From: Microbacteriaceae bacterium PS02332
GTDB taxonomy: Bacteria; Actinomycetota; Actinomycetes; Actinomycetales; Microbacteriaceae
Direction: 5' to 3'
Length of the DNA stretch: 64,000 nucleotides
Assembly: GCA_029959645.1 (NCBI GenBank)
Contig: JASCOJ010000002.1
Coordinates: 1 to 64,000, forward strand
Shown here: positions 31,052 to 42,586 of the stretch, in pieces
Layout of the letters: the number at the start of each line of letters is the position of its first letter
Numbering within the stretch: position 1 is the stretch's first letter
Notes under the pieces: model-generated
What the model was told of the DNA's origin: nothing
What the model saw: the letters and a program-made list of their open reading frames with translations, nothing else
The model's database searches: none
Made by a program: the position numbers and the translations under genes

Positions 31052-34000
31052 TCACGCCCGCGGCGACACCAACTCGATGAACCGCGACAGCAGCGCCAGC
31101 CCCGGGATCGACGGCGGCAGCGCGGTCGTCAGCGCCGGCGAGTACACGAGGTACGCCGCCCACTTCGCCCGTGACAGCGCCACGTTCAACCGGTTCGGCA
31201 TGAGCAGGAAGTCCAGCCCGCGTGGGATGTCCGCCGCTGAGGACGCGGCCAACGACGTGATCGAGACCACGGCCTCCCGGCCCTGGAACAGGTCGACGGT
31301 CCCGACCTGCGTGCCGCGGAACCCGGCTGCGTCGAGTGCCTCGCGGATCACCGCACCCTGCGCGTTGTAGGGCGCGACGACGATGACGTCCTCGTCGGTC
31401 AGCTTGCGCGTGCCTCGGTCGTCCGTCCAGGTCCGCCGGACGACGTCCGCCACGAGGGCGACGACCCGCGCCGCTTCCTCCGGCGACGAGGTCGTGTTCC
31501 CCGCGTGCACGATCGGCACCGGGTGCACCCCGGGCTCGATCCCGTCGAGGTGCCGCCCGGAGACCATCGACGCGAGCTGCCCGTCGTAGGAGAGCCCCGA
31601 CACCGCCGCGGTCAGTGCCGGCTCCATCCGCCGAGTCTTCGCGAGGAAGTACCCGAACTCCGGCGGCAGCACGTGCTCGCCGTCCGCCAGCCACCCGAGC
31701 GCGGACTGGTCGACCGGCTCCGGGTGGGACCCCTGCGACACCTGGGGCAGCTGCTGCGGGTCGCCGAGCAGGAGCAGGCGGGACGCGGCGACGGCGGAGG
31801 CGATGGTCGGCGCGAGGGAGAACTGCCCGGCCTCGTCGACGACGAGCAGGTCCAGGGAGCGCCGACCGATCGTCGCGTCGTTCGCGAACGTCCACGCGGT
31901 CCCGCCGACGACCCCACCGGTGCCCGTGTCGGCGCAGGACTGCAGGAACGCGGCGATCGCTGCGCCGTTCTTCACCGGCGTCCACGCCGCGGCCTCGATC
32001 TCCTCGGCGTCGGCCCCGCTCTTCGGCTGCTTCACCACGCGGTCGGCCGGCACCCCGGCGGCGATGACCGCGTCGAGGAAGTTCTCGCTCGTCGCGTGCG
32101 ACTGCCCGACGACGCCGACTCGCCAGCCGTGCTCGCGCACCAGCTTCGCGACGACGTTCGACCCGACGTACGTCTTGCCGGTGCCGGGAGGCCCCTGGAT
32201 CGCCAGGTACGACCAGTCCAGCCCGAGCATGGTCGCCACCACGGCGCCGACCGTGTCGTCCCCGACGACCGGCGCCAGCGCCCCGCGCGGCGGCACCCGG
32301 CGGAGGAGATCGAGCGCCGGGTCGGGGAGCATCTCCGGGAGGGCGTCGAGCACCGACGCGCCCCACTCCGCGATCGCCTCCGGCTGCGGCTTCGCCCGGG
32401 GCGGCGACGACGGTGCCAAGGCGACCGGGAAGTCCGCGTGCGGCTCTCCGCCGCCGACCGGCAGTCGTTCGAGGAGCAGCACCTCGGTGGCGTTCCCGTT
32501 GTCGCGCACCTCGAGGATCGTCGCCCGGTCCGTGCCGGCCTTCGAGCCCGGCCCGGGCGCGGGGAGCGACGCCGGAAGTGGGTCGTCGTAGACGAGGTGG
32601 GGCGCGCCTCCAGGCCGGAGCCGCGAGCCGGGCGCGAGCGTCCCCGACACCCGGATCTCTCGTGACTGCGACCGCGCACGCGGCATCGTCGCCCAGTCGC
32701 GCTCGACGGACGCACGCTCGACGACCAGGACGTCCCGGGTGTCCGCCCACTCTTCGACGGGACTGCGGAGGCGGTCGAAGTGGTCCTGCCAGAAGGTCTT
32801 CGCCTCGCGACGGTGGTAGTCGATCGCGGCCGCGGCGAGCGCCAACGCGGTCTGGTCGGGCGTGCGGTCGAGGGCGTCGACGTCCGCCAGGTACTCGGTG
32901 AGCGCGACCGTCACCGGGTTCGGCTCGCGCTCGACGGGGACGGGCGGGAGGCCCTCCAACTCGACCACGCTCGTCGCGTCCGGCGCGTGCTCGGCGCGCA
33001 GCTCCAGCAACCAGTCGCGGAGGCGCAGCGTCGACCGGCAGTCGTAGGCGTTGTAGTCGGCGACCTGGTCGAGCTGCCTCTGCCCCTCGGCGGAGTCACC
33101 GTCCCGGAGCTCCTCGATCGCGTCGACGTAGGCGGTGATGCTGTCCGCCGCGTTCGTCACGTCGCTCAGCCGCAGGTCGTCGCCCATGTATAACGGCTCG
33201 AGCTTCTTGATCGAGTAGCTGCGGCTGCCGACGACCAGCGCCTTCCGCACGATCGGGTAGAGGTCGACGAGGACCCCGGTTCGGAGGAGGTCGTCCACCG
33301 TTTCCTCCCCCACCCCGTGCCGCGCGGCGAGGGACAGCAGGTGCGTTCGCTCGTACGAGGCGTAGTGGTAAATGTGCATGCCCGGGTACTGCTGGCGGCG
33401 CTCCTCGATGAACGCGAGGAAGTCTTCGAGCGCCCGCCGCTCGTCGCGGATCGTGTGCGCCCAGAACGCGCGGAACTCGGCCTGGTCGTCGACGAGGCCG
33501 AACAGGTAGTCGAGGCCCCAGTGCACGCCGTCCTCGGTGTGCAGGGGGTCGCCCTCGAAGTCGAAGAAGACGTCACCGGCGTCCGGTGCCGGGATCGCGT
33601 CGAGGGCGCGGGGGTCGAGGACGTCGAAGGCGGGGCGCTTGGGCGCGCCGTCGCCGCTGTTCTTGCTCACGTCGCGACGCGCGTTCCGCTCGGTGTCGAT
33701 CTGGAGGCTCGCCTGCCGCACCAGCCGCTCCTGCGTCGACCGCGGGAGACCAGGCACCGAGGCGGTCCGGACCGCCAGGTCGTCGATCGTCCGCACCCCC
33801 TGCCGGATCAGCTTCGTCCGCTGGTCGAGACGCATGCCCGCGACGAGGACCAGGTCGCGGTGCTGCTCGACCTGCTGCTGGCAGGCGCTGCACCGGCCGC
33901 AGGAGCTGTACCGCGGGTCGCCCCACTCGAGCGGATCCTGCGCTCCCAGCCGTTCGTCGATCACCCGGTCGAGCTCGGCCCGCTGCGTGCGGTACACCGG

Positions 34001-34561
34001 CGCGATGTCGGCGAGGTCGTGCGTGGTCGTCGTCCGATCGCCCAGCACGAGGTGCACCTGCGCGCCCGTCGGGATGCCGTTCGCCTGCATCTGCTCGGCG
34101 TAGGCGGCGAGCTGCAGCAGGGCGCTGATCTTGGCGTGCCGGGCGAGCTTCGTGTCGTAGACCTCGTACTCGCCGCGGTCGTTGCGCATGATGAAGTCCG
34201 CGAACCCGATGAAGCCGGCGCTGTGCTCGGTCGGCGGGGCGTGGAAGGTCGGCTGGAAGAGGACGTCGGCACCGTCCCGCATCGCCTGGATCGCTGCGGC
34301 TGCCGCCTCCGGGTACTGCGGCGGGGCCGGGCGTTCGAACTCGACGACGTCGTGCGTCTGCCGGAGTGCCTCGAGGTGGTCGGCCTCGTGCTGGTCCCCG
34401 AGGCGCGCGGTGCGGTCGAGCATGTCGTCGTGCTCGTCAGGCAGGGGCTCACTCCGGCCGAGCTTGGCGTCGAGTCGGCGGAGGAAGGCCCACTCGCACG
34501 TCGCCCACGTGGTGAGGTCGCTCGGGCTGAGCAGCGCTCGGCCGCTCTCGGTGATCTGCAT
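31052..34561 (-). CDS. RecB-like nuclease fused to SF1 DNA/RNA helicase (TM0106 family)
   Basis: 1169 aa. N-terminus: predicted RecB-family nuclease (LSPSDLTTWATCEWAFLRRL, then FADFIMRNDRGEYEVYDTKLA, and a Cys cluster YSSCGRCSACQ typical of an Fe-S or zinc site). Middle: an RNase-H-like exonuclease region (DVFFDFEGDPLHTEDG, YNAYDCRSTLRLRDW). C-terminus: Dna2/NAM7-type helicase with LAIQGPPGTGKTYVGSNVV (about 792), LLVVDEAGQFSL, LLLGDPQQLPQVSQG, TVDLFQGREA and MPNRLNVALSRAKW. Probably DNA end processing. ATG 34561 has GGGGAG 4 nt upstream; the ATG at 34612 lacks one. Confidence 0.88.
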   Translation of the reverse strand: MQITESGRALLSPSDLTTWATCEWAFLRRLDAKLGRSEPLPDEHDDMLDRTARLGDQHEADHLEALRQTHDVVEFERPAPPQYPEAAAAAIQAMRDGADVLFQPTFHAPPTEHSAGFIGFADFIMRNDRGEYEVYDTKLARHAKISALLQLAAYAEQMQANGIPTGAQVHLVLGDRTTTTHDLADIAPVYRTQRAELDRVIDERLGAQDPLEWGDPRYSSCGRCSACQQQVEQHRDLVLVAGMRLDQRTKLIRQGVRTIDDLAVRTASVPGLPRSTQERLVRQASLQIDTERNARRDVSKNSGDGAPKRPAFDVLDPRALDAIPAPDAGDVFFDFEGDPLHTEDGVHWGLDYLFGLVDDQAEFRAFWAHTIRDERRALEDFLAFIEERRQQYPGMHIYHYASYERTHLLSLAARHGVGEETVDDLLRTGVLVDLYPIVRKALVVGSRSYSIKKLEPLYMGDDLRLSDVTNAADSITAYVDAIEELRDGDSAEGQRQLDQVADYNAYDCRSTLRLRDWLLELRAEHAPDATSVVELEGLPPVPVEREPNPVTVALTEYLADVDALDRTPDQTALALAAAAIDYHRREAKTFWQDHFDRLRSPVEEWADTRDVLVVERASVERDWATMPRARSQSREIRVSGTLAPGSRLRPGGAPHLVYDDPLPASLPAPGPGSKAGTDRATILEVRDNGNATEVLLLERLPVGGGEPHADFPVALAPSSPPRAKPQPEAIAEWGASVLDALPEMLPDPALDLLRRVPPRGALAPVVGDDTVGAVVATMLGLDWSYLAIQGPPGTGKTYVGSNVVAKLVREHGWRVGVVGQSHATSENFLDAVIAAGVPADRVVKQPKSGADAEEIEAAAWTPVKNGAAIAAFLQSCADTGTGGVVGGTAWTFANDATIGRRSLDLLVVDEAGQFSLAPTIASAVAASRLLLLGDPQQLPQVSQGSHPEPVDQSALGWLADGEHVLPPEFGYFLAKTRRMEPALTAAVSGLSYDGQLASMVSGRHLDGIEPGVHPVPIVHAGNTTSSPEEAARVVALVADVVRRTWTDDRGTRKLTDEDVIVVAPYNAQGAVIREALDAAGFRGTQVGTVDLFQGREAVVSITSLAASSAADIPRGLDFLLMPNRLNVALSRAKWAAYLVYSPALTTALPPSIPGLALLSRFIELVSPRA

Positions 34562-34770
34562 CCGCTCCCCGCTCTCTCGTGGCCCGACAAGCCTAGGAGC
34601 GGGGGCCGACACCTCAGCGCCTGCTGTGGAGAAGCGACCGCAGGGCGACGATCCCTGCCGAGGTCAGCCCGGGCGATATATCGAGCGTGCTTACAAGTCC
34701 GACATATGACATGTTCGGTGCAGGACGAGCGTTCGCTCGATCCTGGAAGCCGTCGAACAAGGAGACGCCC
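34562..34770. promoter_or_regulatory. Promoter region of the peptide operon
   Basis: Between the divergent nuclease-helicase and peptide genes. It contains an AT-rich part unlike its surroundings (GATATATC at 34675-34682 and CATATGACATGT at 34703-34714) and a palindrome CGAGCG-TT-CGCTCG at 34726-34739, 32 nt before the peptide start. AAGGAG sits 6 nt before ATG 34771. The exact -10/-35 boxes are not clear. Confidence 0.45.
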
Positions 34771-35031
34771 ATGACGACCCTGTCAGCCCTGCCCGTGACC
34801 ACCATGACGCACGCGTCCGAGTACGGGGACCTCCGCGTCCGGCGCGTGGCGGCGAGCCGGAACCCCGTCCTGATCATCGTGGTCGCCGCCGCGATCGTCC
34901 TCGGCCTCGGCTTCGTCGCGTACCTCCAGGTGCAGTGCGTGTCGCACGGGTACCGCGCGTTCAACGCGGTCGCGAACATCAGCTGGCACGGCGCGGTCAA
35001 CGCCACCGTGAAGTTCACCTGCGTCAAGTGA
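34771..35031 (+). CDS. Small two-cysteine membrane peptide, possible bacteriocin/RiPP precursor
   Basis: 86 aa. Residues 1-31 are hydrophilic with mixed charge (leader-like, ending RVRRVAASRNP). Residues 32-52 are one strong helix (VLIIVVAAAIVLGLGFVAYL). The final 34 residues are Cys-bounded: C56 and C84 enclose 27 residues poor in charge (VSHGYRAFNAVANISWHGAV...). This leader, helix and Cys-closed tail plan is seen in several secreted antimicrobial peptides; no named family matches. It heads an operon with an ABC exporter and an M50-like protease, each gene overlapping the next. Its TGA overlaps the ATPase GTG (GTGA). Alternative: a regulatory or immunity peptide. Confidence 0.6.
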   Translation: MTTLSALPVTTMTHASEYGDLRVRRVAASRNPVLIIVVAAAIVLGLGFVAYLQVQCVSHGYRAFNAVANISWHGAVNATVKFTCVK

Positions 35032-35852
35032 TCGACGTGCCGGTTCCGGAGCCCCTCGTCGCGCTCGGCTGCACGAAGCGGTACAGGACCGGCACACGCG
35101 CCCTCGCCGGGGTCGACCTCACCGTCGGCCCTGGCGAGCTGGTGGCGGTGCTCGGCCCGAACGGCAGCGGGAAGTCGACGTTCATCCACGGCATCGTCGG
35201 GCTGCACACGCTCGATGCCGACGCACTCGCGATCTGCGGCCACGACGTCGACGACGTCGAGACGAAGGAGGTGCTCGGCTTCGTCCCCGACGAGCTGCCG
35301 ATCCCGCAGTCGCTCACCGGGTGGGAGTACCTCGACCACCTCGAGCGCCTCCGTGGCACGTGCGACAACCGCTGGCGAACCGTCCTGATCGACGAGCTCG
35401 GCCTGAGCCGCCACCTCGACAAGTTCATCGGCGACATGTCGCACGGGACGAAGAAGAAGCTGCAGATCGTCGCCGCCGTGCAGCACGTCCCGCGTCTGCT
35501 CGTGCTCGACGAACCGTTCCGGGGGCTCGATCCCCGGTCGGTCGTCGTCATCCGCAGTGTCCTCGACGTGCTGCGGTTGCGCGGGGCGGGCATCCTCGTG
35601 GCGACGCACGACGTCCTCGCCGCCGAGCGGTGGTTCGACCGCGTGGTGATCCTGCACGACGGCGTCGTCATCGCCGACGGAGCACCCGATGCGCTCGTCG
35701 CCGCTCGACGAGCGGACTCACTCGAGGCCGTGCTGCTCGCCGCCACCGACGCCGACTCCACCGATGCCGTCGGCGAGCGCCTCCGCTGCGGCCTCGCTGA
35801 CGCGACCCCGAGCACCCTCGCCACCACCGAGCACAGCAGGAGCCCCCGATGA
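35028..35852 (+). CDS. ABC transporter ATP-binding protein of the peptide operon
   Basis: 274 aa. Walker A LGPNGSGKSTFIHGIVG, signature DMSHGTKKKLQIVAAV (MSHGT instead of LSGGQ, as in several bacteriocin/immunity exporters), Walker B LLVLDEPFRGLDPRS and H-loop ATHD are present. The C-terminal 50 residues (AARRADSLEAVLLAATDADS...) extend past the usual domain. GTG start overlaps the peptide stop and its TGA overlaps the next ATG (ATGA). It presumably energises export of, or resistance to, the upstream peptide together with the two membrane proteins that follow. Confidence 0.85.
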   Translation: MIDVPVPEPLVALGCTKRYRTGTRALAGVDLTVGPGELVAVLGPNGSGKSTFIHGIVGLHTLDADALAICGHDVDDVETKEVLGFVPDELPIPQSLTGWEYLDHLERLRGTCDNRWRTVLIDELGLSRHLDKFIGDMSHGTKKKLQIVAAVQHVPRLLVLDEPFRGLDPRSVVVIRSVLDVLRLRGAGILVATHDVLAAERWFDRVVILHDGVVIADGAPDALVAARRADSLEAVLLAATDADSTDAVGERLRCGLADATPSTLATTEHSRSPR

Positions 35853-36124
35853 CCGCACTCCGCGTCGCGCTGACCGTCCTCGCTTCGATCCTCGGCGCGG
35901 CCATCGTCCTCGCCGTCGTCGCGGCTGCGAGCATCGCAACCGCGATGACCAGCGGCCACGACGTCCACGTGCCGGGCCTCCTCGACATCGCCGTCGGCAG
36001 TGGCCGGGACCTGGCGAGCGCCTCCACCGGCGGTGGGGTGCTCGTCTGGTTCGCGGCAGTCACGGTCACCTTCGTCGGCATCGGCCTCGTCCGTCTCCGA
36101 GCCAGGCGCAGCCACGATGTGTGA
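35849..36124 (+). CDS. Small membrane protein of the peptide operon
   Basis: 91 aa with two transmembrane helices (VALTVLASILGAAIVLAVVAAASIA and VLVWFAAVTVTFVGIGLV) joined by an extracytoplasmic loop with His/Asp (TSGHDVHVPGLLDIAVGSGRD) and ending in a basic tail RLRARRSHDV. No known family. Overlaps the ATPase stop by 4 nt and the next gene by 8 nt. Candidate for an exporter subunit or an immunity protein. Confidence 0.6.
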   Translation: MTALRVALTVLASILGAAIVLAVVAAASIATAMTSGHDVHVPGLLDIAVGSGRDLASASTGGGVLVWFAAVTVTFVGIGLVRLRARRSHDV

Positions 36125-37529
36125 AGTCGCCCGCTTCGCCTGCCTGACCCGGGCGCTGTGGCGCGGCGACGTCACCCGGAGCATCACCGGATCGCGTGCC
36201 GGCACCACCGCACTGGAGGCAGCACTCGTCCTCCTCGTGGTCGCATGGCCGACACTCACGGTCCTCTCGGTGGAGCCCGGGCTCGACGGCATCCCGCCGG
36301 AACTCCAGCTGCGCCTCCTCGACGACGCCGTGCAGGGAGCCGCACTCGTGAGCGCGTGCATCACCGCCGTGCTCACGGTGTTGATGCCGGGCTCGCGCGC
36401 GCTCGAGACGATGCTCGTCACGCTGCCGCTCTCCCGCACGACACGCGCCGTCGGCCCGCTGGTCCCCCTGCTGGTGACCGCACTGGTGGGAGGCCCGGTC
36501 GTCGTCTCCCCGCTGCTCGCGCCCGCCGTGCGGCTGGGTTCACCAGCGGTCGCCGTCGCGGCCGTGCTCTTGACGGGAGGCGCGGCCCTCGCCGCCGCGC
36601 TCGTCGCCACCGCGCTCATCCGGTTGTTGCGGTGGCTCGCCGTCCGTGTGGGGCTGGCGGAGGTCCTCGCGACGAGCGTCGCGGCGGCGCTGACGCTGGC
36701 CGTCGCGGTGGTGGCCCTCGTCGGAGTACGGGGCCTCCCGCTCGCCGCCCTCGCTCCGGTCGACGCGACCGGGTCGGCTCTCGCACTGCGGGCCGTCGCC
36801 TGCCTCCTCGCTCTGGCCGTCGGCGTCGTCTCGCTGGTCGGCGCTGCGCGACTCCGCCGCGCCTCCCCGTCGATCATCGGCGTCCGTGTCCTCGTGCATC
36901 GCGGGCGGAGTCTGGCGCGGGGCAGGTCCGCCGTCGTCGACGCGCTCCTCTGGTGCCGGGATCCCGCAGCCGTATCGACCCTGCTGCTGATGGCGCTGCT
37001 CGTCGTCGCGACAGCCGTGGCCGCGCGCACCGGCAGCTGGTGGGCCGCGGTCCTCGCTCTGCCGCTGCTGCTCGGGGCACCGAGCGCGGTCGGTCTCGTA
37101 CACTACGGGACGGACCGCACCACATCGTGGCGGCGCAGCACCGTCCTGCCGCTCCATGAAGACCGTTGGGCGATCGTGCGCACGGTGGAAGGGCTCGTCC
37201 TCGGCCTCGTCGCCGGCGGGCTGACCGCACTGCTGCTGGTGCCGCGGGACGTCGGGGAGGACTGGTGGCAGATCCTGGCGCTGGTGGCCTTGGCAGCCGG
37301 TGCAGGCCTCCTGGCCGGGGTCATGGTGCCGAGCGACCTCGAGCTCCCGGGTGCGTCGGTGTTGGCGGCGGCGCTCGCGGCGGTGCTGACAGGAGTGCCG
37401 ACGTGGGCGTTGACGCATGCGGCACCGGACGGCCGTTCGCCGGCGGTGCTCGCCGTCGTGGCGGCGGTCCTGGGAATCGCGACGCCCGTCGCCATCCAGG
37501 TGCGCCGGCGACGAGCGGTGACGGCGTGA
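36117..37529 (+). CDS. Polytopic membrane protein (ABC permease-like) of the peptide operon
   Basis: 470 aa, about 10-12 hydrophobic helices, with cytosolic loops such as HRGRSLARGRSAVVDALLWCRDP and HYGTDRTTSWRRSTVLPLHEDRW. The general plan (paired helix blocks with a long loop in the middle) resembles ABC-2-type permeases, but I see no sequence signature. Together with the preceding ATPase it could form an exporter. Starts 8 nt inside the small membrane-protein gene and stops over the GTG of the protease gene. Confidence 0.72.
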   Translation: MCEVARFACLTRALWRGDVTRSITGSRAGTTALEAALVLLVVAWPTLTVLSVEPGLDGIPPELQLRLLDDAVQGAALVSACITAVLTVLMPGSRALETMLVTLPLSRTTRAVGPLVPLLVTALVGGPVVVSPLLAPAVRLGSPAVAVAAVLLTGGAALAAALVATALIRLLRWLAVRVGLAEVLATSVAAALTLAVAVVALVGVRGLPLAALAPVDATGSALALRAVACLLALAVGVVSLVGAARLRRASPSIIGVRVLVHRGRSLARGRSAVVDALLWCRDPAAVSTLLLMALLVVATAVAARTGSWWAAVLALPLLLGAPSAVGLVHYGTDRTTSWRRSTVLPLHEDRWAIVRTVEGLVLGLVAGGLTALLLVPRDVGEDWWQILALVALAAGAGLLAGVMVPSDLELPGASVLAAALAAVLTGVPTWALTHAAPDGRSPAVLAVVAAVLGIATPVAIQVRRRRAVTA

Positions 37530-38224
37530 CGGTGGAGCCGCACGCCGGTGTGGCCGTCGCTCCGCTGGCGGACGGGTTGCGGGTCCGTGACCCCGCGACG
37601 GAGGTCGACGTGGTCGTCCCGTCCCCAGCGCTCGAGGCGTTCCTGCTCCGGAACGGCCTCGGACGGCTGAGTGGCGTACGGCCCGCCGGTGCCGACGCGG
37701 GTGGCTGGGGCCGGGCGATGCGGACCACTTCGGCCGCTCCCGGCATCGTCGGCGCGTGCGAGGCGACCGTCGTCGCTGTCGTGCGCGCGTACGGCGTCGT
37801 CGCACTCGTCATCGGTGTCGGTCTCGCCGCCGTCTTCACGACGGCAGACGCACCGGTGCGGCTCGTCGCGGGCGCCGCCGTGGCGCCGCTCCTGGCGCTG
37901 GTCGTCGTGATCGTGCACGAGGCCGCGCACTGGGCGGTGCTCCGCCTCCTCCGCGGCGGGTGTGCCGGGGCCGTCGTCGTCGGGTGGCGCACGTGCATGG
38001 TCGTGCACGCGGTGTTGCCCGCCCGGCAGGACCGGCTCGTGGCCGCAGCCGGACCGGGCGTGGGGTTGCTCGTGTCGCTCGGGAGCCTGCCGATCACGCT
38101 CGGGGACTTCGCCGGGGCGTACACGAGCGTCGTCCTGGTGATCGTGAACCTGCTCGGATTCACGCCGCTGACGTCGGACGGGCGGCGGGTGCTCGGCGTC
38201 CAGGAGGAGCAGGAGGCGTGGTGA
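37526..38224 (+). CDS. M50-like membrane metalloprotease of the peptide operon
   Basis: 232 aa. The zinc-protease motif HEAAH (131-135, HExxH) lies in a membrane helix (ALVVVIVHEAAHWAVLRLL), and NLLGFTPLTSDGRR (208-221) supplies the second M50-type motif with a possible third ligand D218. Two helices precede the motif. The first 75 residues are soluble (LADGLRVRDPATEVDVVVPS, LEAFLLRNGLGRL) and could be a leader-recognition domain. Such proteases accompany peptide clusters such as yydFGHIJ, where they are proposed to trim the precursor. GTG overlaps the permease stop; last gene of the operon. Confidence 0.72.
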   Translation: MTVEPHAGVAVAPLADGLRVRDPATEVDVVVPSPALEAFLLRNGLGRLSGVRPAGADAGGWGRAMRTTSAAPGIVGACEATVVAVVRAYGVVALVIGVGLAAVFTTADAPVRLVAGAAVAPLLALVVVIVHEAAHWAVLRLLRGGCAGAVVVGWRTCMVVHAVLPARQDRLVAAAGPGVGLLVSLGSLPITLGDFAGAYTSVVLVIVNLLGFTPLTSDGRRVLGVQEEQEAW

Positions 38225-38351: not shown

Positions 38352-40412
38352 ATGAGCATGCCGGGGGCATCAGCAGGGCGTCGCGCACGCCACCTGGAGC
38401 GAGCGGCCGCCGAAGATCCGGCGCAGGCGGCAGCACTGCTGGCGGAGTCCGGGCGGTTCGCGGTCGCCGAGCAGACCGAGGCGCGGACGGCACAACTCGT
38501 CGCCGAGCTCGCTGCCGAGGGCTACCAGCTCCTCGCTGACCGTCGATGGCCCGGGTCGAAGACCGCGCAGGTGGACCTCGTCGTCGTCGGGCGGACGGGC
38601 GTGTTCATCGTCGACACGAAGGCATGGCGCGACTTCTCGCTGCAGGACGGCCGGCCGTACCGCGGGCAGGAGGACGTCAGCGACGACTTCGACTCGCTCG
38701 CAGCACTGCTCGACAGCACGCAGGAGGCGTTCGCCGAGGTCGGGTTACCGCCGAACCAGGTGCACTGCATCGCCGCCATGCACCACCAGCCGAGGATCGA
38801 GGCCTCAGTGGGGACGGTCGAGGTGGTCGGTTGCGAGAGGCTCGTCGACCGTCTCCAACGACCGGGAGCTCGCTTGACCGTGCAGGACGTCGAGCATCTC
38901 GCAGCGGTGGCACGCGACTGGTTTCCCGTCATCGTCGACCCCGAGGACGGTCCGTCGGCGCTGCAACTCGACATCGAGGTCGAACCCGCACCGCTCTTCG
39001 ATCTCGACGAGTTCCACCGGGGCCTCCTGCACCTCGACGAAGCGCCGATCGAGACGTGGATGTCGTTCCTCGACCCCGCTCAAGCGAAGATCGCCCGGCG
39101 CAGCTTCAACGGGCCAGCGCGAATCCGTGGGGCGGCCGGCACCGGGAAGACCGTCGTCGGATTGCACCGGACGGCACACCTCGCACGGGCGGCGACGAAC
39201 ACGGTGCTCGTGACGACGTACGTCAAGACGTTCCCGGCGGTCCTCGAGTCGTTGCTGCGCCGGATGGAGCCCGTGCACGCGAGCAAAGTGCAATTCGCCA
39301 GCGTGCATGCGATCGCACGGAAGATCTTGGTCGAGCGCGGCGTCCCGTTCGCGATCGACTCCGACCTGATCGACACCGCCTGGTGGCGCGCCTGGCACGC
39401 GCTCGACTCCGAGAGCCCGCTCGCGTCTGCCCGCTTTGACGGCAACTACTGGCGTGATGAGGTCCAGCACGTGATCAAGGGCCGGGGCTTGGTCGAGTTC
39501 GAGCAGTACGCCCGCGTCGCCCGCGTCGGTAGGAAATACGCGCTGCCGGTCGAACTCCGTGAGCACGTGTGGAAGCTCGCGGAGGCGTACGAGCGCAACC
39601 TCACCGCCGCCGGCATCATCGACTGGGCCGACCTCGCCCGGATGGCCCGCGACGAACTCCGCGAACGGCCACTCGACCGGTACGAAGCGATCGTGATCGA
39701 CGAAGCCCAGGACCTCGACTGCGTGACGGTCGGGATGCTCCACGCCCTCGTCGGCGACCGGCGCGACGGGCTGACACTCATCGGTGACGGGCAGCAGTCC
39801 ATCTACCCAGGCGGCTACACCCTCGGCGAGATCGGCATCAGTCTGGCCGGCCGAGGGGTCGTCCTCGACGTCAACCACCGCAACACCCGCCAGATCGCCG
39901 CCTTCGCACGACGTCTGGTCGAGGACGACATCATCACGGACATCGAGGGCACGGACGCTGCTGGCGACACCGTTGCTGCGATCACTCGGACCGGCCCCGA
40001 GCCGGTCCTACGCCGGTTCGCCGGCACCCGTGACCACGACCGCGCCCTCGCAGCCGTCCTGGAGACCACCACCCATCTCGGCGTTCGTGCCGGCGACATC
40101 GGGGTGCTGGCGCAGAGCAACAAGTCGGCTGAGCGGATCATCGCGACCCTCCGACGTCAGCGGATCCCGGCGATGTCGATCGAGCGGTACACCGGTCAGA
40201 CGACGAACCACGTCAAGGTCGGCACGATCAAGCGCGCCAAGGGCCTCGAGTTCAAGCACGTCTTCCTGGCGGACGTGCCACCGCGCCTCCTGGACGACAC
40301 CACCGGCTCGGAGAGCGAGAGTCTCCTCGAGCGTCGCCGACTCGATCTCCGGGAGCTCTACGTCGGCATGACCCGCGCGCGCGATGAACTCTGGGTGGGC
40401 GTCTCAGGCTGA
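38352..40412 (+). CDS. NERD-domain UvrD/Rep-like helicase
   Basis: 686 aa. The N-terminal NERD (nuclease-related) domain is visible at residues about 35-130: YQLLADRRWPGSKTAQVDLVVVGRTGVFIVDTKAW, with D and xxK of a PD-(D/E)xK-like core. The SF1A helicase follows: RGAAGTGKTVVGLHRTA (motif I, about 258), VIDEAQDLD (motif II), LIGDGQQSIY (motif III), TIKRAKGLEFKHVFLAD (motif V) and YVGMTRARDELWV (motif VI). Probably acts on DNA ends or foreign DNA. ATG 38352 has GGGGAAGGAC upstream; the frame open from 38232 overlaps the operator and is not used. Confidence 0.9.
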   Translation: MSMPGASAGRRARHLERAAAEDPAQAAALLAESGRFAVAEQTEARTAQLVAELAAEGYQLLADRRWPGSKTAQVDLVVVGRTGVFIVDTKAWRDFSLQDGRPYRGQEDVSDDFDSLAALLDSTQEAFAEVGLPPNQVHCIAAMHHQPRIEASVGTVEVVGCERLVDRLQRPGARLTVQDVEHLAAVARDWFPVIVDPEDGPSALQLDIEVEPAPLFDLDEFHRGLLHLDEAPIETWMSFLDPAQAKIARRSFNGPARIRGAAGTGKTVVGLHRTAHLARAATNTVLVTTYVKTFPAVLESLLRRMEPVHASKVQFASVHAIARKILVERGVPFAIDSDLIDTAWWRAWHALDSESPLASARFDGNYWRDEVQHVIKGRGLVEFEQYARVARVGRKYALPVELREHVWKLAEAYERNLTAAGIIDWADLARMARDELRERPLDRYEAIVIDEAQDLDCVTVGMLHALVGDRRDGLTLIGDGQQSIYPGGYTLGEIGISLAGRGVVLDVNHRNTRQIAAFARRLVEDDIITDIEGTDAAGDTVAAITRTGPEPVLRRFAGTRDHDRALAAVLETTTHLGVRAGDIGVLAQSNKSAERIIATLRRQRIPAMSIERYTGQTTNHVKVGTIKRAKGLEFKHVFLADVPPRLLDDTTGSESESLLERRRLDLRELYVGMTRARDELWVGVSG

Positions 40413-41545: not shown

Positions 41546-42502
41546 TCAGGCCGTGCGTACGCCCTGCACGGCCTGCTCCGACAGCGCGACGAGATCGTCC
41601 GCGCGGAGGCCCGGCCACCCATGCAGCACGGCCCGCCACTCCTTGGGCAGGGCAGCCGCCCCGTACAGCGCTCCCGCGAGGCCACCCGCGATCGCCGCGA
41701 CCGTGTCGGTGTCGTTGCCTGATCGGACGGCCCGGATGAGCGCGTCCTCGAGCGAGGTCGACCGCCGCACCGCCGCGTAGGCCGCCTGCAGCGCCGACAC
41801 CACCCACCCGTTCGTCGCGGTGAAGTCGACCGGCTCCGCGTGCTCGGCCGCGACGAGGCGCTCCGTCCAGACACGCCGGGCGGCGGGCTCGAGCAGGTCC
41901 AGCCCCCGCAGGACGTCGAGCTCGCCGTGCAGCACCGCGTGCCGGATCGCCACGCACCACAGCACGCACGCGTCCCCCGTGTCCGCCTCGTGGTGCGTCA
42001 GGTCGCTGACCGCGCGCGCTGCCGAGGCGAGCCGCTCCTCTTCACCGTCATCCCCACGCAGGTACGCGAGGACGAGCGGCGCCGTCCGCATGAGCGAACC
42101 GTTCCCGGCCGACTTGCCGGTCGACTCGTGCACCTCGCGGGCCGCGACGCGGCTGGCGGAGGCGGTCCGGGCCTCCAGACCGTTCAGGACGCGACGCGTC
42201 TGGATGCCGACGTCGGGCGCTGTCTGCGCCCAGCCCGCCCAGGCGGCGACGAGACCGTCGAGGGTTGCATCCGCAACCGGGTCGTCACCTCGGGCGACGG
42301 CCTGGAGGATCGGCACAGCCATGCTCGTGTCGTCCGTCCACTGCCCTGGTCGCCACCCGAAGGAGCCGCCGCCCTTCATGAGGATCGGCGTCGGTTCCGG
42401 GACGGGTGGGTCGAACTCGTACCCGGCGCCGAGGGCGTCGCCGGCGGCGGAGCCGATGACAGCGCCGAGGGTGCGGTCACGGATCGAGGCGTGTTCGGTC
42501 AT
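41546..42502 (-). CDS. ADP-ribosylglycohydrolase, NrtR-linked copy
   Basis: 318 aa, ARH/DraG family. Motifs: GSAAGDALGAGYEFDPP, QWTDDTSMAVPILQAVARG (metal-binding Thr-Asp-Asp), TGKSAGNGSLMRTAPLVLAYL, and VRSGNDTDTVAAIAGGLAGAL (second metal pair). Clearly a paralogue of the protein at 10.2 kb, sharing GNGSLMRTAPL, SDLTHHE and the GWPG near the end. GGAGG precedes the ATG. The divergent neighbour is an NrtR-like Nudix regulator, and two similar palindromes lie between them, pointing to control by ADP-ribose or a related NAD metabolite (inference). Confidence 0.9.
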   Translation of the reverse strand: MTEHASIRDRTLGAVIGSAAGDALGAGYEFDPPVPEPTPILMKGGGSFGWRPGQWTDDTSMAVPILQAVARGDDPVADATLDGLVAAWAGWAQTAPDVGIQTRRVLNGLEARTASASRVAAREVHESTGKSAGNGSLMRTAPLVLAYLRGDDGEEERLASAARAVSDLTHHEADTGDACVLWCVAIRHAVLHGELDVLRGLDLLEPAARRVWTERLVAAEHAEPVDFTATNGWVVSALQAAYAAVRRSTSLEDALIRAVRSGNDTDTVAAIAGGLAGALYGAAALPKEWRAVLHGWPGLRADDLVALSEQAVQGVRTA

Positions 42503-42520
42503 CGGGTGACCTCCGTTCGG

Positions 42521-42542
42521 GTTTGCGCAGGACTGCGTTAAC
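42521..42542. promoter_or_regulatory. Palindromic operator 1 of NrtR-like regulator
   Basis: GTTTGCGCAGGACTGCGTTAAC: GTT..CGCAG and CTGCG..AAC are inverted. It lies 19-40 nt upstream of the glycohydrolase ATG, where its promoter should be, and shares GTTTGCGCA with operator 2. Confidence 0.65.
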
Positions 42543-42564
42543 TCGATGATGCACCAGCGGCGCG

Positions 42565-42586
42565 GTTTGCGCAACAGCGCGTAAAC
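42565..42586. promoter_or_regulatory. Palindromic operator 2 of NrtR-like regulator
   Basis: GTTTGCGCAACAGCGCGTAAAC: GTTT.CGC and GCG.AAAC are inverted. Its centre is 44 bp from operator 1. It covers TAAACT (42582-42587), the likely -10 box 7 nt before GTG 42595, so binding would block transcription of the regulator. Confidence 0.65.

Follow-up and report, generated by a model that had tools for sequence, protein, structure and literature searches.

A cluster of five genes on the forward strand of a 64,000-nucleotide stretch of DNA from Microbacteriaceae bacterium PS02332 (contig JASCOJ010000002.1, positions 1 to 64,000; here the window) very probably encodes, judging from its sequence, a bacteriocin of the TMcin type, and would form a strongly diverged branch of this known kind. 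TMcins were published in August 2025 (PMC12328743) and characterized stepwise in a 2026 preprint (PMC13252029); our statements on both papers refer to their main texts. They are secreted bacteriocins that keep a transmembrane (TM) helix (PMC12328743, PMC13252029). TmcA, the precursor, resides in the membrane and loses its leader to TmcP, a member of the S2P (site-2 protease) clan; TmcD forms a disulfide in staphylococci, TmcE, which has two TM helices, acts as an escort and TmcBC exports the peptide (PMC13252029). Three arrangements of the core operon of tmcA, tmcB, tmcC, tmcE and tmcP are reported, from Bacillota and Actinomycetota (PMC12328743, PMC13252029). We file the window cluster as a diverged TMcin-type cluster; the assignment is based on which genes it contains, their topology, the grouping of the ATPase and the protease profile rather than on the peptide sequence.

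Direct reading of positions 34771–38224 (forward strand) confirmed the original prediction of five genes that overlap head to tail, chained by GTGA, ATGA, an 8-nucleotide overlap and GTGA. The products are, in order, an 86-amino-acid peptide, an ABC (ATP-binding cassette) ATPase, a two-TM protein, a 12-TM permease and an HExxH membrane protease, a set that matches the TMcin core operon tmcA, B, E, C and P one for one (PMC12328743, PMC13252029). The idea of a precursor, an intramembrane protease and an ABC exporter working together was borne out, in that five gene types recur at all 19 loci of the family with strong peptide matches (see below); for the fifth type, the two-TM protein, the role already described for TMcins, that of the escort TmcE, had been missed. 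TmcE is reported to have a three-stranded sheet between its two helices, and TmcC to have 12 TM helices (PMC13252029). In the reported TMcin assembly of precursor, protease and escort, TmcE takes the position of S2P helices that TmcP lacks. By hydropathy, the window permease also has 12, and five others gave 10 to 12 by the same count. Above curated Pfam cut-offs the ATPase is the sole named protein of the five, and NCBIfam supplied no name for any of them among the matches listed (for the ATPase, the best 25 of 198); the permease belongs to no Pfam or NCBIfam family. PADLOC defence models, searched with the four proteins other than the ATPase, returned none for the peptide, two-TM protein, permease or protease.

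The peptide has the hydrophilic leader, helix and C56/C84 tail that had been read from it originally, just as the last gene does encode an HExxH protease. Residues 1–31 are hydrophilic and are predicted by the positive-inside rule to be cytoplasmic; the predicted helix spans residues 33–51, and C84 is followed by a two-residue tail, VK. The nearest relative found, in genome G820 (G numbers denote genomes and L numbers loci), is 68% identical, with a non-synonymous rate (dN) of 0.215 and a synonymous rate (dS) of 0.597 over 85 codons. The peptide is under purifying selection, and its reading frame is therefore not a chance one. Identity to G820 is 73% for the ATPase and 50–54% for the two-TM protein, permease and protease. 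Both cysteines are present in 19 of 19 peptides from the family, and across aligned peptides conservation is higher in the helix and the outer Cys loop than in the inner part. In the published accounts, two cysteines bounding a C-terminal loop are universal in TMcins; tryptophans at both helix ends are highly conserved, but are not stated to be universal. The N-terminal part of the window precursor matches no Pfam or NCBIfam domain. NCBIfam models for ribosomally synthesized and post-translationally modified peptides (daptide and others) did not match the precursor and reached the window protease at 0.14, below cut-off; nothing exceeded the NCBIfam cut-offs, either, for four further precursors, three further proteases or the N-terminal extension of the window protease.

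We searched for relatives within the genus, family and order, by which we mean the taxonomic groups around the window genome; g79 is another genus of the same family. As a single query, the window peptide returned no match from 59 other genomes, of which 36 belong to the same genus. With the window protease as query, 398 family genomes yielded 14 with matches, one of them the window genome itself and most of them marginal. Four of the 13 non-self genomes were inspected for that match: G239 and G394, both g79, are real and reproduce the five genes of the window in unchanged order, and G264 and G283 have no such cluster. A three-row protease profile matched 11 of the 398 genomes; all five gene types are present in the window, five g79 genomes, G209 and G371, arranged in the last two as peptide, two-TM protein, protease, ATPase and permease. 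Inspection of G131 revealed no cluster match, and G379 and G389 were left uninspected. With a ten-row peptide profile, 40 of the 398 genomes were matched, 10 strongly (E ≤ 2.1e-5) and 30 only weakly (5.9e-4 to 0.01). The strong matches comprise the previous eight plus G030 and G164 from the window's own genus, both with all five gene types; two of the 30 weak genomes were opened (G076 and G280) and showed no permease, two-TM or protease matches. A second peptide profile that included G030 and G164 found 12 loci in 10 of 67 genus genomes, each with the five gene types.

Together, the strong matches define 19 loci in the family (10 + 12, three common to both), and each of them contains the five gene types, arranged in one of two orders. 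The profile search proposed with the original prediction thus came out in its favour: an ATPase and an HExxH protease stand beside the peptide, and the Cys pair is present, at 19 of 19. One gene is broken in frame at two of these loci (the permease in G443 and the protease in G001). The peptide occurs in five of nine g79 genomes, where the two-TM protein aligns with that of the window at 37% identity. Across the order, an eight-row protease profile gave 21 matches, its own included, in 396 genomes. When the 20 non-self loci were fetched, a high-scoring ATPase adjoined the protease in four (G601, G654, G500 and G683) and a lower-scoring ABC ATPase did so in four of the other 16; these 16 loci were judged by profile alone, with two-TM and permease profiles that were then silent even in the four real loci. 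G500 and G683, from other families of the order, are arranged as peptide, ATPase, permease, two-TM protein and protease, and their peptides resemble the published TMcin in having a Trp-flanked helix and cysteines spaced 25 residues apart. G654 has a four-Cys peptide, protease, ATPase and permease, and G601 a protease, ATPase, permease and small membrane protein with no peptide seen; both run to a contig end. In a collection of 84,980 species, no relative of the window protease was found, and among the best 80 of 577 ATPase stretches, which served as an outgroup only, none had a same-strand hydrophobic HExxH open reading frame by our own filter. Plasmids contained no match to the window protease, peptide or permease, nor to the G683 permease, and phages none to the window peptide, the sole query there. 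The G683 peptide was the one query that led to plasmid loci of Bacillota; it matched six plasmid records. Three were opened, revealing loci of Peribacillus, Roseburia and Paraclostridium (Bacillota) whose peptide helices start with AW and end with WC, as in the published TMcin.

The ATPase signature MSHGT, singled out originally as non-standard, proved ordinary among relatives. MSHGT is shared by the window, G820 and G814; YSHGM or FSHGM occurs in G239, G394, G209, G371, G030, G164, G500, G683, Peribacillus and Paraclostridium, and YSFGM in G601 and G654. In an unrooted tree, 15 TMcin-type ATPases (the window and 14 others, two of them from Bacillota) split from 82 generic ABC ATPases with a support of 99/94. 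Nine of the 15 rows come from the family and six from other clusters, and the two ATPases from f20, another family, fall among the family rows.

The protease carries HEAAH at residues 131–135, a GP motif and a distal P..D motif with D218 in PLTSDG; all eight aligned rows share H131, E132, H135 and D218. The best solved structure for the eight-row profile was 3b4r (MjS2P; E = 0.0036), to which the authors also matched TmcP, and TmcP of G1905 is reported to belong to Pfam DUF3267 (PF11667) (PMC13252029). A profile–profile comparison aligned 10 family proteases with six from other TMcin-type clusters (Prob 97.4, E = 1.3e-11). DUF3267 was matched in the proteases of Roseburia (2.2e-5), G500 (0.0074) and G164 (0.6), all under the curated cut-off, and gave no match in those of G683, G030 and Paraclostridium; because it is absent or below cut-off in these six other proteases, it does not define such clusters.

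The N-terminal extension of the window protease had raised the suspicion of a PqqD-like domain, which was rejected: Pfam, NCBIfam and profile comparison were empty, and the extension has no similarity to PqqD-bearing relatives. The TMcin-type protease of Paraclostridium (L186 8496–9389) does have an N-terminal PqqD domain (PF05402, E = 1.2e-13), which suggests that leader recognition is built into that protease; the word PqqD is absent from the main texts of PMC12328743 and PMC13252029. Further along the same locus are a gene with a thioredoxin domain and another HExxH protein, which is annotated as DUF3267. Two related f20 clusters (L144 4696–5745 and L143 2530–3366) encode proteases with a longer N-terminal region, which had no Pfam match in G654, the one f20 case tested.

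Several observations weigh against the assignment to TMcins. The window peptide has no Trp at its helix ends, and its cysteines are 28 residues apart, compared with 25 in the published TMcin. A profile of seven canonical or other-family peptides scored it at 13.1 bits, compared with 16.8 bits for the best of 1,000 segment-shuffled decoys; only G371 (18.8 bits) exceeded all 1,000. In the reverse test, the Paraclostridium (19.8 bits) and Roseburia (16.6 bits) peptides surpassed all 700 decoys (up to 12.9), and the published TMcin (12.0 bits) and the remaining peptides did not. Compared with other TMcin-type clusters, the two-TM protein profile found no match (Prob 0.5), and that of the permease matched weakly (Prob 8.6, E = 0.004, against at most 0.2 in six cross controls). 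The window protease has five hydrophobic segments by hydropathy count, compared with four helices reported for TmcP (PMC13252029), and does not match DUF3267 at E ≤ 1. The ATPase grouping is limited by the unrooted tree and by generic rows picked for their likeness to the family; the ATPases of Peribacillus, Paraclostridium, G500 and G683 sit between family and generic rows, and several rows are long branches, among them that of the window, whose exact placement is unsupported (87/29). ATPase profile scores do not separate the groups, at 144–205 bits for the six other-cluster ATPases and up to 200 for generic ones. Finally, no DsbA-like gene is present among the five genes, the flanks lying outside this search.

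Leader removal by TmcP, disulfide formation, export, the need for TmcE, killing and pores, described as beta-barrels, have been demonstrated for TMcin-G1905 only (PMC12328743, PMC13252029). By analogy, we infer the cut site, secretion, killing and all other activities of the window cluster. Through its helix the precursor would insert into the membrane of the producer, with the leader inside and the Cys loop outside; the loop would be oxidized to a C56–C84 disulfide and the TmcE-like two-TM protein would escort the precursor. The TmcP-like protease would cut off the leader near the inner helix end, around residue 31/32 if C56 is aligned with Cys25 of the mature TMcin, to leave a product of about 55 residues; a start at Pro32 would give a monoisotopic mass of 5795.14 Da with the disulfide, and starts at residues 29 to 35 masses of 6152.31 to 5485.93 Da. 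The TmcBC-like ATPase and permease would then pull this helix-plus-loop peptide out of the membrane, and it would enter the membranes of other bacteria and form pores. For the window cluster, intramembrane trimming, the disulfide and export are well supported by the likeness of its parts to those of TMcins. The original proposal of a new class matured by intramembrane cleavage and perhaps a disulfide is supported in its mechanism; the class itself was already published. The window branch may already be in the published TMcin tree; the terms tried for Microbacteriaceae and Curtobacterium are absent from the text of PMC12328743 and PMC13252029, figures and supplements aside.

Three other readings have to be weighed. 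The product of the cluster could be a signal: a secreted peptide, trimmed within the membrane and exported, that its own or neighbouring cells sense. Intramembrane proteases of Gram-positive bacteria are known to trim pheromones, and purifying selection on the peptide would suit such a signal; we nevertheless consider this unlikely, as there is no receptor or regulator among the five genes (the flanks were not searched systematically), the gene set matches a cluster whose product kills (PMC12328743), and peptide types differ strongly within the genus, two of them at one site, which fits antagonism better. It is still less credible that the peptide is a membrane stress sensor, cut to release a signal by regulated intramembrane proteolysis next to a detoxifying pump. 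A single-TM substrate and a site-2 protease are the well-established usual arrangement for such signalling, but here the inner part, in which no Pfam or NCBIfam domain was found, is less well kept than the helix and outer loop, and a permease outside all Pfam and NCBIfam families is no known pump.

The remaining alternative, that this is a distinct peptide class that resembles TMcins and reached the same parts list independently, draws on the peptide and small-protein sequences, which stay below significance against other clusters. Agreement of five parts in content and topology, the ATPase grouping, the protease profile match and the clusters of the same order with canonical peptides make it, in our view, quite improbable, and argue for a diverged TMcin-type cluster.

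By eye, the peptides of the genus fall into three types, which differ in Cys spacing: 28 in type I (window, G820 and G814), 24 in type II (G164, G001, G011, G812 and G021) and 22 in type III (G030, G805 and second copies in G001 and G021). Gene order is A-B-E-C-P in types I and II and A-E-P-B-C in type III. The divergent nuclease–helicase gene upstream of the window cluster is present in 65 of 67 genus genomes, and 6 of the 12 genus clusters begin within ~210 bp of it, of type I (window and G820) and type II (G164, G001, G011 and G812). Six inspected genomes that lack a peptide match have other genes at this site (in G019, another ABC-type pair), without peptide, permease or protease matches there (the ATPase profile was not run). 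The nuclease–helicase site is a variable region in which unlike TMcin cassettes alternate. We offer only tentatively the idea of a swappable locus, in which type I and II cassettes alternate at the helicase site and the third type, with its other order, lies elsewhere: the loop would set the target range, the less conserved two-TM protein would act as matching escort and self-protection, and exchange would alter weapon and immunity together. The authors of the TMcin work suggest that the escort hinders oligomerization in the producer, and immunity was not studied there (PMC13252029). The occurrence of dissimilar peptides at a single site within a genus would make TMcin self-immunity testable.

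Some further observations concern these loci. The type II protease gene of G001 is split over two frames (L196 2747–4188), by assembly error or decay, and the second, type III cluster of this genome (L203) has matches to all five profiles. The G027 site (L206 1943–2692) has an unexplained weak two-TM (TmcE-like) match (E = 6.7e-5), with no peptide, permease or protease match. A thioredoxin-like gene beside the G164 cluster was considered as TmcD and rejected, since G036 and G019, both without a cluster, carry what is by eye apparently the same gene close to the site. Directly downstream of the window cluster is a gene for a NERD-nuclease and UvrD-type helicase (38352–40412), with homologues at 40–51% identity and varying distances in 32 of 66 other genus genomes, and an ADP-ribosylglycohydrolase gene is located nearby (41546–42574; PF03747, E = 5.1e-54). 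A scan for promoter and terminator consensus sequences found none, and says little at the G+C content of the window (~70%).

Table 1. Features of the window cluster and its flank.
Feature	Positions	Strand	Basis
tmcA-like precursor, 86 amino acids	34771..35031	+	Open reading frame; Cys pair; purifying selection
Putative leader, residues 1–31, net charge +2	34771..34863	+	Alignment of C56 with published Cys25
Predicted TM helix, residues 33–51	34867..34923	+	Hydropathy averaging 2.83 across 19 residues
Cys-bounded C-terminal loop, C56 to C84	34936..35022	+	Sequence
Probable ribosome-binding site AGGAG	34760..34764	+	Sequence; 6 nucleotides before peptide ATG
tmcB-like ABC ATPase, 274 amino acids, GTG start	35028..35852	+	Pfam ABC_tran 1.2e-20; tree
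ABC signature MSHGT	35436..35450	+	Sequence; SHG common to relatives
tmcE-like small protein, 91 amino acids, predicted TM helices 6–24 and 63–81	35849..36124	+	Hydropathy
tmcC-like permease, 470 amino acids, 12 predicted TM helices	36117..37529	+	Hydropathy
tmcP-like intramembrane metalloprotease (S2P clan), 232 amino acids, GTG start	37526..38224	+	Motifs; profile
Protease N-terminal extension, residues 1–63	37526..37714	+	Comparable stretch in G820 and G814
Zinc motif HEAAH, residues 131–135	37916..37930	+	H131, E132 and H135 invariant in 8 rows
Asp218, candidate third zinc ligand	38177..38179	+	Invariant in 8 rows
Flanking nuclease–helicase (PDDEXK, RNase_H_2, AAA_11/12), divergent, outside cluster, marks site	31052..34561	-	Domain matches

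According to its authors, TMcin escaped genome mining because no part of its cluster resembles other bacteriocin clusters (PMC12328743). A parts list of a Cys-pair loop, an S2P protease, an SHG-type ATPase, a two-TM protein and a 12-TM permease finds the window branch where the canonical peptide profile did not, and the branch offers natural variants for testing what a pore needs, with no flanking Trp, a longer loop and no DsbA in the operon.

The comparison originally drawn was with the epipeptide system yydFGHIJ (EpeXEPAB). That system shares a small precursor, a membrane metalloprotease and an ABC transporter with the window cluster, but has a different precursor, no known two-TM escort and a need for a radical SAM epimerase. 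The absence of a radical SAM gene among the five genes was noted correctly; the nearest system is TMcin rather than yydFGHIJ. The plasmid loci of Peribacillus muralis (NZ_CP017081), Roseburia sp. 831b (NZ_CP135163) and Paraclostridium bifermentans (CP124688) have the same precursor plan as the window, with a Trp-flanked helix, unlike the window, and the Peribacillus and Paraclostridium ATPases lie on the window's side of the tree. All five gene types are present in Paraclostridium, with PqqD on a protease whose window counterpart has no PqqD match; in the opened stretches, the Peribacillus locus showed no protease, and the Roseburia locus neither an ATPase nor a permease. Next to the Roseburia precursor (L185 7083–8591) is a gene for a protein of 502 amino acids that has CxxC stretches at the N terminus as well as a membrane part; by eye it is of thioredoxin or disulfide type, and it could have the role of TmcD. 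Compared with TMcin-G1905 of Staphylococcus aureus (pCT545), the window cluster differs in its lack of flanking Trp, its Cys spacing of 28 rather than 25, the absence of a DsbA gene from its five genes, a protease below DUF3267 detection and a peptide and escort with no significant sequence match; however, both have the same precursor plan of a leader, a single TM helix and a C-terminal loop bounded by Cys, and both place an ATPase, a 12-TM permease, a two-TM escort and an S2P protease in one operon.

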